Positions 2,025-9,034 of a DNA stretch of 9,594 nucleotides are shown here, one piece after another (within the stretch, counting starts at the first letter, position 1; each line of letters starts with the position of its first letter). Origin of the DNA: Promethearchaeota archaeon (lineage in GTDB: Archaea; Asgardarchaeota; Lokiarchaeia; Sigynarchaeales; SOKP01); NCBI GenBank assembly GCA_030605085.1, contig JAUWBH010000203.1:1-9594 (forward strand), written 5' to 3'. Position numbers and translations under genes: made by a program. The notes below the pieces were generated by a model, which was not told the DNA's origin, did no database searches, and saw nothing but the letters and a program-made list of their open reading frames with translations.

Positions 2025-2032
2025 AAGGTGAT
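2025..2032 (+). promoter_or_regulatory. Shine-Dalgarno that fixes the copA start at GTG 2037
   Basis: AAGGTGAT pairs with the 16S rRNA tail. An upstream in-frame GTG at 2028 lies inside this site and has no site of its own, so GTG at 2037, 4 bases after the match, is the better start. Confidence 0.6.
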
Positions 2033-2036
2033 TAAT

Positions 2037-5000
2037 GTGGAATCTGAAAAAAGAGAAAAAATTTACATTAAACTGGGCGGAATGACTTGCGCTAACTGCG
2101 CGCTCAAAATCGAAACCAAATTGAAGGGGTTAGATGGTGTAAGTCTATCGGTTGTGAATTTTGCGAACGAAGAAGCGAATGTGGAATATAATCGAAATAC
2201 TGTCGATTTCTATAAATTTCGTCAAGCAATTAAAGATTTGGGCTATAGAGCAAATCTTTCTAGAATTGATGTCGTAATAACTGATGAAATTATGGATAAG
2301 GAATTTGACGATTTTTTAAATAAAATCAAGAAGATAAAAGGAGTCTATGAACTACGAGGGAATTTTCAAGCAAAAAAGCTCTTCCTTGAGTTTAATGAAT
2401 TTGAAATAAGTGAAAATAAGTTAATTTCTAGTTTAAAAAATTTTGGCTATAAAATAGAGAAATCTGCTGGAGTTATAGACAAAGAATTTGAAGCTACTCA
2501 AAGGGAGTTGAAAAAAAGGTATCGAAATTTTGTGATATCTTTAGTATTTTCTCTGGTTATTGCTCCAATGAGTTGGTTTATTGCAGACCCATCTTTTGAA
2601 GTGAAACTTTTTTTGTTTTTTCTGTCTATTGCAAATTTCGCCGTTGGAGGAACACCCTTTCTTATTGGAGCATATAAATCGTTAAAAAATAAATCAGCGA
2701 ATATGGATGTATTAGTGTCAATAGGGACTGGAACAGCTTTAATCTATTCCATTTTGTCTACTTTTTTTACTGATGGAGATATTTTCTACGAAGCAATGAG
2801 TTTAATTTTAACATTTCTACTATTAGGCAAATACTTAGAGCATAGAGCTAAAGGTCAGGCTTCAGAGGCAATTAAGAAATTAATTGGCTTACAGGCAAAA
2901 ACTGCGATTATTTTAAAAGATGGGAAAGAAATTGAAATCCCCATAGAAGAAATTGAGGTCGGAGATATTTTAATAGTGAAACCAGGAATAAAAATTCCCG
3001 TAGATGGAAAAATAGTTGAAGGAAAATCTAAAATTGATGAGTCAATGATTACAGGAGAAAGTGTTTATGCTAAAAAATCTGTTGGTGATGAAGTAATAGG
3101 CGCAACCGTTAATCAGACTGGATTAATTAAAATGATAGCTGAAAAAGTGGGTAAGGATACTTTATTATTTCAGATAATAGATTTTGTGAAAGAGGCACAA
3201 AGCAAAAAAGCAGCAAAACAGCTATTAGCAGATAAAGTTAGCAATTATTTTGTTCCCGTTGTCATTATTATTGCTCTCAGTGCGTTTTTTTACTGGTGGT
3301 TTATTGGGGGGCTTGGTTTTGAAACTGCATTACGAGTTTTTACCGCAGTTGTTGTTATTGCTTGCCCTTGCGCGCTTGGTCTGGCAATTCCAACTGCCGT
3401 GATGGTTGGAACGGGAAAAGGAGCAGAAATTGGTATATTAGTAAAGGGTGGTGATTCATTAGAAGCAATAAATAATGTTAATAATATTATCTTTGATAAG
3501 ACAGGGACATTAACCGTAGGAAAACCTAAGGTATCTACAATTGTTGCAGAAAAGGAAATAAAAAATGAAGGATTTTCAGAAGAGGAAATACTTTATTTTG
3601 CTGCAAGCGCAGAACTAGGCTCAGAGCATACAATTGCTAAAGCGATTATTGAGGAAGCTAATCAAAAAGGGATCAATTTAAACGAACCAAAAGAATTTAA
3701 TGCAGTACCTGGAAAAGGAATTGAAACGACAATCGATAACATGAATGTTTTAATTGGCAATGAAAAACTAATGCTTGATTATAAAATCGATCTAGAACAA
3801 TTTGAAAACAAATTTAAGGAATTACAGAATAAAGGGGTAACTACTATATTAATAAGCGTGGATAAAAAAATTAGAGGTATTCTTGGAATTTCAGATAAAA
3901 TCAAGGACCAAGCATCGTACGCTCTTAATGGATTAAGAGAAATGGGAATCCAGCTATTCATGCTAACTGGGGATAATAGGCAAACAGCAATAAGTATAGG
4001 GAAAGAATTAGATTTTGATGAAAAACACATATACGCGGAAGTATTACCTAATGAAAAAGCACAAACAGTAAAATCTACACAAGAATTGAAGGAAAACAAT
4101 GTGGTAGCGATGGTTGGTGACGGTATTAACGACGCTCCTGCCTTGGCTCAGGCAGATGTTGGAATCGCTATAGGTTCAGGTACAGATATTGCAATAGAAA
4201 CTGCAGATATAGTACTAATGAGGGGCGACCTAAGAAATGTTGTATCTGCAATAAAATTGTCTAAAAAAACATATCGAAAAATGATTACAAATCTATTCTG
4301 GGCATTTATTTATAATATAATTGGTATTCCATTGGCTGCAGGCATATTATATGTGATTTCAGGGTACTTTTTACCGCCATATTTGGCAGCGGTTTTTATG
4401 GCATCGAGTTCAGTATCAGTAGTTACAAACGCTCTTTTCTTAAAGCGATTTGATCCCAGAACAGAACAACAAATTCAAGAGGAAAAATTATTAATCGAAA
4501 AGAAAGATGTAGATCCTGTCTGTGGAATGGAGATTTCACCATTAAAGGCAATTGAATACGAATATAAGACCGAAAAATTTTACTTCTGCAATCCTAATTG
4601 TGAAAAAGAATTCAAACGAGACCCGGAAAAATACAAAGATTACAAGCATAGCGAACCTAAGTTAATGTACAAAAAAGCAGAAGAAACTGAGACCGAAGAA
4701 CTAGTTACTGATTTAGTGTGTGGTATGAAAATAAAGCCTAGCGAATCTATTGAATACGAGTACCAAGGTAAAAAATACTATTTCTGTAACGAATCTTGTA
4801 AAGTTGAATTTCAAAATACCCCTGAAAAATTCGTGAAAGTGAAAGAAACAAAACCAATAATTGAAGAAAAAAAACCAAAGGAGGATGAAAAAAAAATGGG
4901 AAATTTAGAATGTGAGAGTTGTGGCGTCAAATTAGAGATTCCTCAACATTGCGGGAAGCCTATGCACAAGGAGGGTGACCAACTCGTCTGCTGGATGGGA

Positions 5001-5063
5001 GCTTCGTGTGGAGCCCAAGCCATTCCAGAACATTGCGAAAAACCGATGAAAGTAAACGAATAA
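2037..5063 (+). CDS. copA: CopA-type Cu(I)-exporting P1B-ATPase with two YHS domains and a C-terminal Cys/His/Met domain
   Basis: A 1008-residue membrane pump using ATP to export Cu(I), about 200 residues longer than most CopA proteins. Numbering is from GTG 2037. An HMA domain has GGMTC and the pair C18-x2-C21; a second HMA-like fold (about 75-145) has lost its cysteines. Helices 1-4 lie at about 165-184, 191-213, 224-244 and 249-267. The actuator loop has TGES at 339-342. Helix 5 is about 404-424 and helix 6 carries CPC at 443-445. The phosphorylated Asp is D487 in DKTGT. SEHT at 529-532 replaces the usual SEHP. The hinge GDGIND starts at 694. Helix 7 has Y759-N760 and helix 8 M788 to S792 (MASSS), the Cu(I)-specific set in CopA. 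The tail has YHS domains at about 824-869 and 890-935 (each CGM, then FCN-x2-C), a charged linker, then a twin IPxHCxKPM domain from M954. The linker encodes a possible second translation start at 4896. Confidence 0.95.
4877..4884 (+). promoter_or_regulatory. strong internal Shine-Dalgarno inside copA
   Basis: AAAGGAGG lies in the stretch coding for the Lys/Glu-rich linker before the C-terminal domain and ends 11 bases before an in-frame ATG at 4896. The strength equals that of the site before 5580, and the spacing equals that before 5137, where GGGAGGTG also ends 11 bases upstream. A purine-rich Lys/Glu linker could give this by chance. Confidence 0.45.
4896..5063 (+). CDS. possible stand-alone 55-residue metal-binding protein made from an internal start in copA
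   Basis: If translation begins at the in-frame ATG 4896, the product is the last 55 residues of CopA: a compact soluble domain with CESCG (6-10), IPQHCGKPM (15-23), CWMGASCG (32-39) and IPEHCEKPM (43-51). It holds six cysteines, two HCxKPM repeats and four Met counting the initiator, all plausible soft-metal ligands. The repeat suggests two similar half-sites. I recall domains of this kind also as separate small proteins, which I cannot verify here. The start follows a strong Shine-Dalgarno and sits exactly at the domain border after a flexible linker. It might serve as a cytoplasmic copper chaperone returning metal to the pump. Alternatives are that the domain exists only as part of the full pump, or that this is a recent fusion that kept the old start signals. 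Confidence 0.4.
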
Positions 5064-5579: not shown

Positions 5580-6206
5580 ATGTCAGATATTCATCCAACC
5601 TTAAAAGTTGATGATAAGCACGCATCTAGTTATGATAAATCGATGATTACGATGGAGCGTTTATTTTCTAAAAGCAGAAAGATCTTTTCACATTTACGAG
5701 GAAAAATACTCGAGGTTGGCACCGGAACCGGAACTAATTTGAAATTTTACCACCCTTCGACAAATGTGACTGCCTTGGATTTTAGTCCTAGAATGGTTCA
5801 TCAAGCAAAGATGAAAGTTAGACGATTAGGCCTTCACAATGTTAAAAAGATTGTTGTAGGGGATATACAGGAACTTACTAAATATTTTAAAGCCTCAACT
5901 TTTGATTATGTAACATCAACATGCGTTTTCTGCTCTGTTTCGAATCCTATAAAGGGTCTAAGGGAAGTAGCTAAAGTCTTGCGACCCTCAGGAAAGTTAG
6001 TTCAAATTGAACACGGATTAAGTAATTTTGGGCTTATTAATTTTGGTATGCGACTTCTCGACCCTCTCACTGTCAAATTACAAGGTTTTCACCTTACACG
6101 CAATACATTAAAGAATCTTGAAATATCTGGATTTAAAACACTATTCCAAAGGTCGCTTGATCCGACAGGAATTATCCGTGTGATCGTATCTACTCCATCA
6201 TCATAG
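5580..6206 (+). CDS. class I SAM-dependent methyltransferase, TMT1/METTL7-like
   Basis: A 208-residue soluble methyltransferase. The SAM-binding site is clear: motif I ILEVGTGTGTN (43-53), acidic loop D67 in LDFS, GD at 94-95, and motif after strand 4 with TSTCVFCSV (112-120). After LRPSGKL (134-140) comes IEHG (143-146). The core order, the CSV segment followed by a REV-x2-VLRP helix, EH, and late GFHLTRNT (169-176) before a GF turn resemble human METTL7/TMT1 proteins, which methylate alkyl thiols. Unlike those, no N-terminal membrane anchor is visible. From family knowledge it may S-methylate small thiols, but a different small-molecule or lipid substrate (UbiE/PmtA-like) is possible. It follows the zinc-ribbon membrane protein by 44 bases on the same strand. 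Stop is TAG. Confidence 0.8.
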   Translation: MSDIHPTLKVDDKHASSYDKSMITMERLFSKSRKIFSHLRGKILEVGTGTGTNLKFYHPSTNVTALDFSPRMVHQAKMKVRRLGLHNVKKIVVGDIQELTKYFKASTFDYVTSTCVFCSVSNPIKGLREVAKVLRPSGKLVQIEHGLSNFGLINFGMRLLDPLTVKLQGFHLTRNTLKNLEISGFKTLFQRSLDPTGIIRVIVSTPSS

Positions 6207-6280: not shown

Positions 6281-6820
6281 ATGAGTGATTCTTTAAAATT
6301 TGTAAGAACTGTTTATGGTTTTTGGGGAAAAATTCCGATTGTTTATAATCTCTCTAATTTAATAACCTACTTAGGAAAAGAAAAATTTTTGCGAGAGAGA
6401 GCAGTTAGTCTCTTACGTATAACTGAAGGTGATAAAATCTTAGATGTAGCTTGTGGTAATGGTTCTAATTTTCCTCAAATACTTACTCGTATTGGAAATA
6501 ACGGGAATATCGTTGGTTTTGATTATTCAGCGGATATGCTTCAAGCAGCTCGTGATAGGATTGAAAAAAATGACTGGAAAAGAATTTCATTGAAACAAGG
6601 AGACGCTGCTAAAATGCCATTTGAGGACAATTCTTTTGATGGTATTATTTCGACTCTTGGTATTAGTGCAATTCCTGACTTTAAATCTGCATTAAATAAT
6701 TGCCTTAAGATTTTAAAGAAAGGGAAATACTTGGTCATTTTAGATGCAAAACCATTCGAAGGAAAATGGCAAATATTTAACCCCTTTATTAAGGTTCTTT
6801 ATTCAATTGGGGCCAGTTAG
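6281..6820 (+). CDS. second class I SAM-dependent methyltransferase, ended early by an in-frame TAG
   Basis: The 179-residue product has motif I ILDVACGNG (53-61), the acidic loop in GFDYS (79-83), GDAAKMPFEDNSFD (107-120) and an LKILKKGKYLVILDA strand (122 onward and 140-146 region), all typical of UbiE-type methyltransferases. Family members usually run 30-40 residues further with two final strands. Those are encoded in the same frame directly after the TAG at 6818-6820. The start ATG 6281 has only a weak GTGAT site before it (6270-6274). It lies 74 bases after the TMT1-like gene and is probably in the same operon. A truncated product might be inactive, since the missing strands complete the Rossmann sheet. 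The substrate is unknown; the conserved cysteine pattern of arsenite methyltransferases is absent. Confidence 0.75.
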   Translation: MSDSLKFVRTVYGFWGKIPIVYNLSNLITYLGKEKFLRERAVSLLRITEGDKILDVACGNGSNFPQILTRIGNNGNIVGFDYSADMLQAARDRIEKNDWKRISLKQGDAAKMPFEDNSFDGIISTLGISAIPDFKSALNNCLKILKKGKYLVILDAKPFEGKWQIFNPFIKVLYSIGAS

Positions 6821-6972: not shown

Positions 6973-8373
6973 TTATTCAGCGCAGCATGTCATTTTGGAT
7001 ACATCTCTTCTGAACGATTGGGCAGCTATTTTAATCGCTTCTGATAGGGTCGGAAAAATATGAAGCGTATCTATTACGCTGTCAATAGTCATCCTATTTT
7101 TTATTATCATAGTTCCTTCATGAATTAACTCCGCTGCTTCCAGTGCAAGAATATGGATCCCAAGAATCTCTTGGGAATCGTTGTTGATGACCATTTTAAT
7201 GGCGCCGCGAGTATCGTTAATTGCTTTAGCTTTTGGTACTAACTCCATTGGAATTGTTGAACATCTACAATTAAAACCTTTTGCTACGGCTTGAGCGTCG
7301 GTCAAACCTACCGAAGCTAGTTGAGGGTCAGTAAAAATGGCATGGGGTACTATTCTATAATCCATATATTTCTTTTCTAAAGATAGGGCATTGTGAGCAG
7401 CGATCATCCCCTCTCGAGCAGCAACAGTTTCAAGCATAGGCTCTCCGGTAACATCACCAGCTACCCAAAGATTTTCTGCAACTTGCATTTCTTTATTTGT
7501 TATAATTTCATTTTTTGGATTGATCTTGATATTAAGCTTTTCAAGTCCTAGATCGGAAGTGTTTGCCCTTCTTCCTGTAGCGATAAGCAATTTTTCCGCT
7601 CGAAATTTTTTTTCACTCCCATTAACAGTAGTCTTCACTATTTTCATATTATTTTCTTGGAGTATTTGTTTAATTTCAGCGTGAGTGTAAATTTGAATTC
7701 CCTCCTCCTGCAAGTATTGATGTAGTAGATTAGAGAGTTCAGGCTCTTCTCGTGGAACAATTTTTTCCGCGAAATCGAGAATGCAAATTTTAGTTCCAAA
7801 CCTTGAAAATAATTGAGAGAACTCTAGCCCTAAAGCACCTCCACCGATTACAATCATTGATTTAGGCAAACTTTTCAGTTGAAGGGCCCCGATGTGTGTT
7901 AAATAATCGATTTGTTTGAGCCCAGGAATTGATGGGATAAATGTTGAGGATCCAGTTGAAATTATGAACTTCTTAGAACTATAAATTTGATCTTTAATCT
8001 GTACTTTATTTCTTGAGATAAAATGAGCATTGCCCTCGACAAAATCTACATTGCGCAGGTTTTGAAGCACTTTCTCGTATTTTTCAATTCTGAAGTTTTC
8101 AACCAAATGATCCTTTTCGGTCATTATAGTCTTAAAATCGAATGTAGTGGAGGAGGATACGCCGGGCAGCTTATTCGCGACGATTTCACTAATTTTATTA
8201 GATAAATAAAGGAGATACTTTGTTGGTAGACACCCGACATTAGCGCAAGTCCCTCCAAGTCCAATTGCTGCGTTATTGATCATTAATGTTTTTGCATTCA
8301 GCACATTAGCTTTCATCGCAGCACTAAATCCAGCAGCGCCCCCACCAATTATAATTAAATCATACTCTTTCAT
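6973..8373 (-). CDS. MerA-like FAD/NAD(P)H pyridine nucleotide-disulfide reductase
   Basis: A 466-residue flavoprotein. The FAD-binding GGGAAG (10-15), redox-active C43-x4-C48 in GGTCANVGCLPTK, NAD(P)-binding VIGGGALGLEF (175-185), the second FAD motif VAGDVTGEP near 308, and a C-terminal dimer domain all follow the lipoamide dehydrogenase/mercuric reductase plan. Two features favour MerA. The usual HP of the lipoamide dehydrogenase active site is F440-P441 here, and the chain ends TCCAE with vicinal C463-C464, the Hg(II)-handling pair of MerA. No N-terminal HMA domain is present. Positions that are commonly Tyr in MerA (SGYIG and VGY) are Ala and Leu, so mercury reduction is not certain; reduction of another metal or disulfide is possible. 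It converges on the methyltransferase genes with a 44-base gap. Confidence 0.85.
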   Translation of the reverse strand: MKEYDLIIIGGGAAGFSAAMKANVLNAKTLMINNAAIGLGGTCANVGCLPTKYLLYLSNKISEIVANKLPGVSSSTTFDFKTIMTEKDHLVENFRIEKYEKVLQNLRNVDFVEGNAHFISRNKVQIKDQIYSSKKFIISTGSSTFIPSIPGLKQIDYLTHIGALQLKSLPKSMIVIGGGALGLEFSQLFSRFGTKICILDFAEKIVPREEPELSNLLHQYLQEEGIQIYTHAEIKQILQENNMKIVKTTVNGSEKKFRAEKLLIATGRRANTSDLGLEKLNIKINPKNEIITNKEMQVAENLWVAGDVTGEPMLETVAAREGMIAAHNALSLEKKYMDYRIVPHAIFTDPQLASVGLTDAQAVAKGFNCRCSTIPMELVPKAKAINDTRGAIKMVINNDSQEILGIHILALEAAELIHEGTMIIKNRMTIDSVIDTLHIFPTLSEAIKIAAQSFRRDVSKMTCCAE

Positions 8374-8485: not shown

Positions 8486-9034
8486 ATGGTTCAATTCAAA
8501 ATTTTCCTTTTTGGATTAGATTTCGCGGGAAAAACTACATTAGTAAGCTTCATTAAGGGAAACTCAAACCTCGACACAATACCTATGAGGGCGTTTCACA
8601 TTGCTGAATTGATTTTGGAGGATTTAAATACTATTATTTGGGACGCACCTGGCCAAATTGCGTATTGAGATTCTTGGGATAAAGGATTGGCCAAAGTCCA
8701 TGTTTTATTATTCGTATTAGATACTTAGGACAATAATCGCTATAGAGAAGCCAAACAGAAATTAGATCGAATATTAAGTAATCCAAGCGTAAGCGGTATT
8801 CCTTTAGTTTTTTACTACCATAAAATGGATTTAGAGGATGCCGACAGGCATTTAGGGACAGCTCAAAATGTATTCGCCTTATTCGAAATTAAGGGTAGAA
8901 AAGTTTTTCAAATACAAACAACTATCGACTCCTATGAAAAAATTACCAAATCAAAAAACACCTTAGTTAGGCTTATTGTTGATCTACAAAAAGAATTTTT
9001 TAGAAAGAAAGATCAGGATTTTAAGAAGTCTTAA
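8486..9034 (+). pseudogene. Arf/Rag-like small GTPase gene with two in-frame stop codons
   Basis: One reading frame of 182 codons before TAA encodes a Ras-superfamily GTPase of Arf/Rag type, with no frameshift. It has a P-loop GLDFAGKTTL (10-19), a switch I with TIP, the G3 motif WDAPGQ (WDxGGQ in Arf), and a G4-like YYHKMD where Arf proteins have NKxD. A TGA at 8666-8668 (codon 61) follows GQIAY, where relatives often have Arg, and a TAG at 8726-8728 (codon 81) follows LDT. Both are explained by C-to-T changes (CGA to TGA, CAG to TAG). The second half restarts only at ATG 8825, too late for a working GTPase. The simplest reading is a young pseudogene. Readthrough or recoding is possible, since the flanking sequence is otherwise well kept. 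Such GTPases are abundant in Asgard archaea. Confidence 0.75.

Follow-up and report, generated by a model that had tools for sequence, protein, structure and literature searches.

A candidate internal translation start conserved in the copA gene of Asgard archaea

Can a single copper-pump gene of an Asgard archaeon yield both the pump and a small free domain? The question was raised by a copA-type gene for a heavy-metal P1B ATPase (2037–5063, forward strand; 1008 aa from GTG 2037) on a 9,594-nt stretch of DNA of a Promethearchaeota archaeon (contig JAUWBH010000203.1; the whole stretch is called the window here). The gene, recognized by profiles, Pfam domains and a database protein, encodes an N-terminal HMA domain, two YHS domains and a C-terminal 55-aa Cys/His/Met domain. 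The original prediction had placed a ribosome-binding site and a start codon directly before this last domain and proposed that a metallochaperone is released by internal initiation. On comparison of the site with related Asgard genes, a conserved internal start in copA that releases the last domain appears, with high confidence, to be the best explanation.

The internal site in the window

An internal Shine-Dalgarno (SD) sequence, AAAGGAGG (4877–4884), was followed after 11 bases (4885–4895) by an ATG (4896–4898) in the copA frame, all on the forward strand and just where the original prediction had put them. AAAGGAGG occurred a single time on the forward strand of the whole window, and most related fusions retained an SD at this place. 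It lay in a Lys/Glu-rich linker (4836–4895, forward strand), and the ATG stood at the junction of this linker and the last Cys/His/Met domain. From the ATG a 55-codon frame (4896–5063, forward strand, stop included; MGNLECES...KVNE, with Cys/His/Met motifs), for which there are free-standing homologues and an AlphaFold (AF2) model, ran to the stop codon of copA itself (5061–5063). Thus an in-frame start with a ribosome-binding signal was present inside a longer open reading frame (ORF), as in a gene within a gene.

SD strength was calculated as the energy of pairing with the archaeal 16S tail GGATCACCTCC (kcal/mol), -7 or lower being taken as strong. The 16S genes of four Asgard genomes (the four with a 16S match, of seven searched) ended in GGATCACCTCC, indicating that the anti-SD is intact. 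The internal site scored -12.1, compared with -10.5 at GTG 2037 of copA (own SD AAGGTGAT, 2025–2032, forward strand), -13.9 at the next gene (5137), -11.4 at 5580, -9.9 at 1733, -5.1 at 6281 and +0.8 at 121; the claim that it is as strong as the signals of separate genes nearby was thus confirmed.

None of 19 other in-frame ATGs tested in the window ORF matched the internal site. Under a synonymous null, in which the amino acids were kept and the codons redrawn from the gene's own usage, the window site alone gave p=0.034. By itself the site was suggestive, only mildly improbable and not decisive, which is one of the weak points of the proposal. Because p=0.034 is weak for a site chosen as striking, the window was left out of the main comparative test. 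An accident, in which a Lys/Glu linker happens to spell an SD before a Met that is an ordinary residue, would account for such a value, and 121 of 1113 other in-frame ATGs were as good as the site of their own locus. Evidence from other genomes, given next, makes this chance reading very unlikely for the family.

Conservation of the signal among fused genes

There were 104 instances of the domain at least 100 residues into an ORF, 64 of them at <97% identity, and 58 of these were scored. Five of the other six had no start (the first copies in L027 and L108, and L114, L037 and L057), and L115 was masked. The 58 included L129 (an N-terminal tandem copy) and L138 and L139 (Longin-TRASH proteins), which are not C-terminal copA fusions; codon, spacing and pairing counts were made on 52 of them, with at least 300–480 residues before the domain. 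For the 58, synonymous codon choice predicted a mean SD of -4.73, and the observed mean was -8.27; 43 were strong against 13.6 expected.

To reduce shared ancestry, 40 saturated representatives (four-fold-site excess identity <0.25) were selected, and 35 were tested after exclusion of the window and of L114, L115, L037 and L057, the last four without a scorable start. In these 35 fusions the mean SD was -8.82. The synonymous null gave -4.79 (sd 0.43), and none of its 2000 simulated means fell below -6.39. A strong SD was carried by 28 of the fusions, against 8.4 expected and a maximum of 15 among 2000 simulations. Shuffling the codon order of the same 20-codon linkers gave a mean of -2.80 and 2.4 of 35 strong. 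If the four unscorable representatives are counted as misses, strong SDs were present in 28 of 39, or in 29 of 40 with the window.

The same preference was visible in single codons. At Glu codon -5, the core of the SD, GAG was used in 34 of 36 cases and GAA in 2 (23 of 25 GAG in the representatives), while the GAG background was 25/214 elsewhere in the linker (Fisher 1e-23) and 748/3401 in the ATPase part (22%; Fisher 3e-20). An SD was spelled despite amino-acid change, as KE, EV, EE and EGE all encoded one. Neither the excess of strong SDs over the amino-acid-keeping null nor the GAG at codon -5 is expected from an accident of linker composition. The check suggested in the original prediction, i.e. 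conservation beyond what the amino acids demand, was therefore positive overall, and the signal is conserved at the nucleotide level beyond the protein sequence, with the exceptions described below. Among all 59 genomes with a C-terminal fusion, close kin included, 41 had a start (codons -5 to +2) with a strong SD, 14 a start with a weaker SD and 4 no start.

Could the SD and ATG be a relic, left over from the in-frame fusion of a formerly separate gene and of no present use? Separate genes for the domain do exist in Thorarchaeota-titled loci and, in L025, directly 3' of a second P-type ATPase gene. However, four-fold sites were saturated (excess identity of the window to 54 others at most 0.21; median 0.03 over 1485 pairs), so the SD is not the relic of a recent fusion: an unselected SD would be lost at saturation, yet it was -7 or lower in the 29 of 40 representatives. 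For the family a relic is therefore very unlikely, and we consider it the least probable of the readings weighed here.

The start codon was examined in 120 fusion proteins, the best of 242 by similarity to the window, some tandem entries being near-identical (e.g. P0105/P0106). Residue 1 of the domain was Met in 92, Val in 17, Leu in 2 and another residue in 9, whereas the neighbouring linker had Met at 22 of 2280 positions; the domain ended at most 9 residues from the C-terminus in all 120. After the 92 Met residues came Gly in 65, Ser in 6 and Ala in 5. Where Val stood at residue 1 it was encoded by GTG in 5 of 5 mutually saturated DNA loci (background, 461 of 3001 Val codons). ATG or GTG was found at codons -5 to +2 in 33 of the 35 saturated representatives, four further ones being unscorable. 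Of 52 fusions, 44 had an SD-to-start distance of 11 nt (29 fusions), 8 nt (8) or 10 nt (7), and separate small genes of the family showed 7–14 nt in 39 of 41 with a match, out of 44 examined.

Controls were available within the same proteins. In 25 of the listed proteins, several of them close kin, the domain was present in tandem copies: residue 1 was Met, Val or Leu in 24 of 25 last copies, and Met or Val in 3 of 25 first copies (two last copies, in P0128 and P0130, scored low). Thus only the last copy, the release of which would give a single free domain, regularly keeps a start. At the YHS junctions of the same genes a start with a strong SD was found in 0 of 42 cases, against 27 of 35 at the domain junction. 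This junction specificity and the first tandem copies, mostly without a start residue, are likewise hard to reconcile with chance. First ATGs of long ORFs had a mean SD of -3.9 (strong in 17 of 108) and separate copies of the domain a mean of -7.5 (strong in 12 of 29), placing the internal site among the stronger SDs.

An SD-like sequence might instead slow or pause the elongating ribosome before the last domain, for the timing of folding or membrane insertion, with no initiation at all. In favour of pausing, L037 and L057 hold a strong SD followed by ATT at residue 1 in place of a standard start, which may be either a non-standard start or a sign of another use of the SD; both are diverged relatives (four-fold excess identity 0.25). 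Pausing would leave unexplained the start codon at residue 1, the GTG at all five Val loci, the spacing of 8, 10 or 11 nt, the absence of the signal from YHS junctions and the difference between tandem copies, and it is improbable. The free domain could also come from a short transcript that starts inside copA, or from proteolysis in the linker, and not from internal entry on the full-length mRNA. The SD and ATG would serve such a short transcript too; pure proteolysis would leave the codon-level conservation of GAG and GTG unexplained. This route is unlikely, if less so than pausing.

For copA of Lokiarchaeia and related Asgard archaea, an internal start is thus the reading preferred here. 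Ribosomes that enter at the copA start would produce the complete pump with the small Cys/His/Met domain attached C-terminally, and those that enter at the SD in the linker would begin at the internal ATG or GTG, yielding the domain as a free, soluble protein of ~55 residues. From the comparison we infer initiation itself and, with it, any ratio of the two products. Most likely a separate gene was fused in frame to the end of copA, this direction of fusion being again inferential, and its ribosome-binding site and start codon would have been kept by selection.

Several further observations weigh against this reading. The support is comparative and the small protein a predicted one; the sequences are related, so the p-values overstate. 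The closest relatives, L011 (core identity to the window 84%), L013 and L017, kept the ATG with an SD of only -3.9 in a linker reading KDSEIT, and L020 had nearly the same upstream bases. The original prediction had named as its refutation orthologues with the same linker residues but synonymous codons that destroy the SD, or lacking the Met; these relatives approach that pattern in their weak SD, but their linker differs and their ATG is kept. To these are added the ATT codons of L037 and L057, the absence of both start and SD at residue 1 in L114, the masked upstream sequence of L115, the weak SD of L136, the displaced ATGs of L128, L131, L133 and L032, and the nine listed proteins without Met, Val or Leu at residue 1. 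Where the linker carries Lys-Gly-Asp, in the lineages of L117, L118, L135 and L137, the SD was demanded by the amino acids (p 0.39–0.79). On a tree of 55 rows the start-codon state changed at least 10 times and the SD state at least 11 times; the signal appears to be kept yet not immovable. A point in favour of an internal start is that the start region was less paired than the other in-frame ATGs (unpaired, 0.71 at 52 sites against 0.47 at 208); A-rich linkers, however, are unpaired for other reasons too. Finally, SD motifs are described as not prevalent in the Lokiarchaeote genome, in the portion of a review drawn on here (PMC7531240).

The domain in fused and separate form

The domain was found in 61 loci of the genome collection and, at E<=1e-10, in 123 of 227 Asgard genomes. 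Typed by hand among the matches listed, 59 of the 123 carried it at the copA C-terminus (including G122, though its copy is at a contig end) and 11 at the copA N-terminus. In 51 it occurred in a small ORF only, some of these being diverged relatives or pieces cut by a contig edge, and in 2 it was part of a Longin-TRASH protein.

Genomes that encode the domain separately, which the original prediction had suggested looking for, were found: all 21 Thorarchaeota-titled loci had it as its own gene (in L060 the sequence runs off the contig). P0138, labelled Thorarchaeota, was nevertheless a fusion with Met at residue 1. One Lokiarchaeal contig contained both forms, a fusion with the internal start (L001) and a separate gene (L025), the latter ~30 nt after an 843-aa ORF for an HMA-bearing P-type ATPase without the domain. 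Many 55-aa database entries come from short contigs (P0004, for instance, from one of 686 bases) and could be edge pieces of fused genes; a gene was therefore scored as separate only at a locus with DNA. An assembly frameshift was rejected as the source of the fused ORF, which was uninterrupted in many independent assemblies.

Within the C-fusion genomes, a separate family gene (another match of at least 59 bits in an ORF <190 aa; start range -5 to +2 codons) accompanied the fusion in 3 of the 4 genomes that lacked a start, in 3 of the 14 whose SD was weak and in 1 of the 41 whose SD was strong. The contrast of 3/4 without to 4/55 with a start (Fisher 0.004) includes close kin and is supportive only. 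Hand-picked complementarity classes (6/7 vs 1/52) were withdrawn, as they had missed G090 and the fixed rule gives a weaker result.

Other arrangements were also seen. A second, diverged protein of the family (57–68 aa, e.g. METFRCSGCGKIMETIPQCC...) was encoded directly 3' of many fused copA genes (L001 6196, L005 6191, L014 6194, L098 1678 and others), and no such match was found behind copA of the window. In other Asgard lineages (L119, L120, L123–L127, L129, L130 and L132) the domain was at the copA N-terminus, and L123, L124 and L126 had a separate copy directly upstream of the N-terminally fused copA. L138 (3000–3716) encoded a ~239-aa protein with a Longin-like stretch (PF13774, just below cut-off), TRASH and the Cys/His/Met domain, possibly a eukaryote-like domain joined to metal sensing, and L139 contained a similar ORF.

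What is the domain? It contains invariant Met residues along with Cys-x2-Cys and His-Cys motifs and, judged by eye, resembles two repeats of a C..C-G...P-x-H-C-G-x-P-M motif. The AF2 model consisted of strands only, with a mean pLDDT of 92.9. Free-standing Asgard proteins of ~55 aa (P0016, P0159 and P0163, all hypothetical proteins) were 56–60% identical to the window domain; they are the same domain with the same M-x-x-L-x-C beginning and differ in having a gene of their own, which in neither of the two inspected Thorarchaeota loci lay beside copA.

No Pfam or NCBIfam family scored above cut-off for the domain (4896–5060), no PDB chain matched its sequence at E<=1 with profile A1, and it reached the cut-off of none of the known small metallochaperone families (CopZ-type HMA, TRASH or YHS). 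In the two Thorarchaeota loci (L042 and L054) the separate gene shared a neighbourhood of ferredoxin, acyl-CoA dehydrogenase and nitroreductase genes, not copper genes. A metal-handling role is likely, and the fusion to copA points to copper; the metal handled by the free protein may be copper or another soft one. As a name for its role, "copper chaperone" is a guess and one more point against the proposal as a whole. Of the original prediction, therefore, internal initiation at the C-terminal end of copA gained strong comparative support, and the metallochaperone part was not borne out by these searches and neighbourhoods.

The copA gene and its surroundings

The host gene itself belonged to the copper-transporting P1B ATPases (CopA), its substrate being predicted. 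It matched TIGR01525 (3.6e-191) and the copper profile TIGR01511 (2.1e-180; 601.2 bits, cut-off 397), and Pfam E1-E2_ATPase, HMA and YHS; a database protein of 1008 aa (P0019) was 100% identical across the searched region. The translation contained CPCALG, and a CPC membrane motif is a mark of copper-transporting P1B ATPases. The cut-off of the E. coli-type CopA equivalog NF007952 was missed (602.6 of 1316). The ORF list begins at GTG 2028, and GTG 2037 was used here. The second YHS domain (4704–4835, forward strand; best PF04945 stretch, residues 893–936 numbered from GTG 2028) lay 5' of the linker.

On the reverse strand, 1109–1555 encoded a PadR-type regulator (PF03551, 3e-8, above cut-off) with a C-terminal TRASH-like part (below cut-off: Ta0938, 2e-5; TRASH_HVO_1752_C, 8e-4), which, from its context, is a possible metal sensor of the cluster. 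Near the metal cluster, 6973–8373 (reverse strand) encoded a pyridine nucleotide-disulfide oxidoreductase-like protein with a vicinal Cys pair at its end (KMTCCAE), presumably reminiscent of mercuric reductase. An Arf-family small GTPase gene (8486–9034, forward strand; PF00025 in its first piece) was interrupted by in-frame stops (TGA 8666–8668, then TAG) and is probably a pseudogene. The window gave no match in Rfam (gathering threshold) or in a tRNA scan.

In CopA(Z)-type frameshifting, an early out-of-frame stop releases an N-terminal metal-binding domain. E. coli copA reportedly makes CopA(Z) in this way, by ribosomal frameshifting after its N-terminal HMA domain. The likeness is that one copper-pump gene yields a pump and a small soluble metal-binding protein; the Asgard candidate has an in-frame start at the C-terminal end and an unrelated small Cys/His/Met domain. 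Since the candidate product is C-terminal, in frame and shares the copA stop, no frameshift is needed in the window copA.

Two known genes within genes are closer in their working, as described in the portions of the articles used here. In Haloferax volcanii, Cas11b is made from cas8b by an in-frame internal start in the 3' third of the gene, which gives the C-terminal part as a separate protein, and its authors claimed in 2025 the first experimental proof in archaea (PMC11899642). Cas11b shares with the copA case an archaeal in-frame internal start and a separate C-terminal product; it is an experimentally proven CRISPR subunit of a haloarchaeon with a potential non-standard SD (GGATG), whereas Asgard copA encodes a metal transporter and has a strong conserved SD, its internal start being predicted by sequence comparison. 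In the Rpn genes-within-genes (RpnL/RpnS) a small C-terminal domain is also translated separately inside a long gene (PMC10327210). Those genes encode a bacterial toxin and an intragenic antitoxin with a variable C-terminus, whereas the Asgard domain is conserved, of metal-binding type and also exists as its own gene. By analogy, internal initiation in copA would be like known in-frame internal starts in its working and like CopA(Z) in its outcome. Asgard copper P-ATPases are mentioned as a family, with no mention of this arrangement in the part of the article used (PMC7997004), and among the literature matches listed, whose coverage leaves out most subscription journals, no Asgard internal start or copA arrangement was described.

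Proof of an internal in-frame start is rare. Here codon-level conservation extends over saturated lineages of one phylum, the tandem copies supply a within-protein control, and some genomes have the domain as a separate gene. Asgard ribosomes are said to depend little on SD pairing, and the case provides a clear-cut test of whether they use an SD for internal entry. If true, annotation of one protein per copA overlooks a product in many Asgard genomes, and copA would parallel CopA(Z) through initiation near its C-terminal end, as a fusion that never surrendered its separate product. It suggests that a pump and a free metal-binding partner from one gene have evolved by more than one route. Across the Asgard archaea, selection probably keeps the fused metal-binding domain doubly available, tethered and free, long past synonymous saturation.

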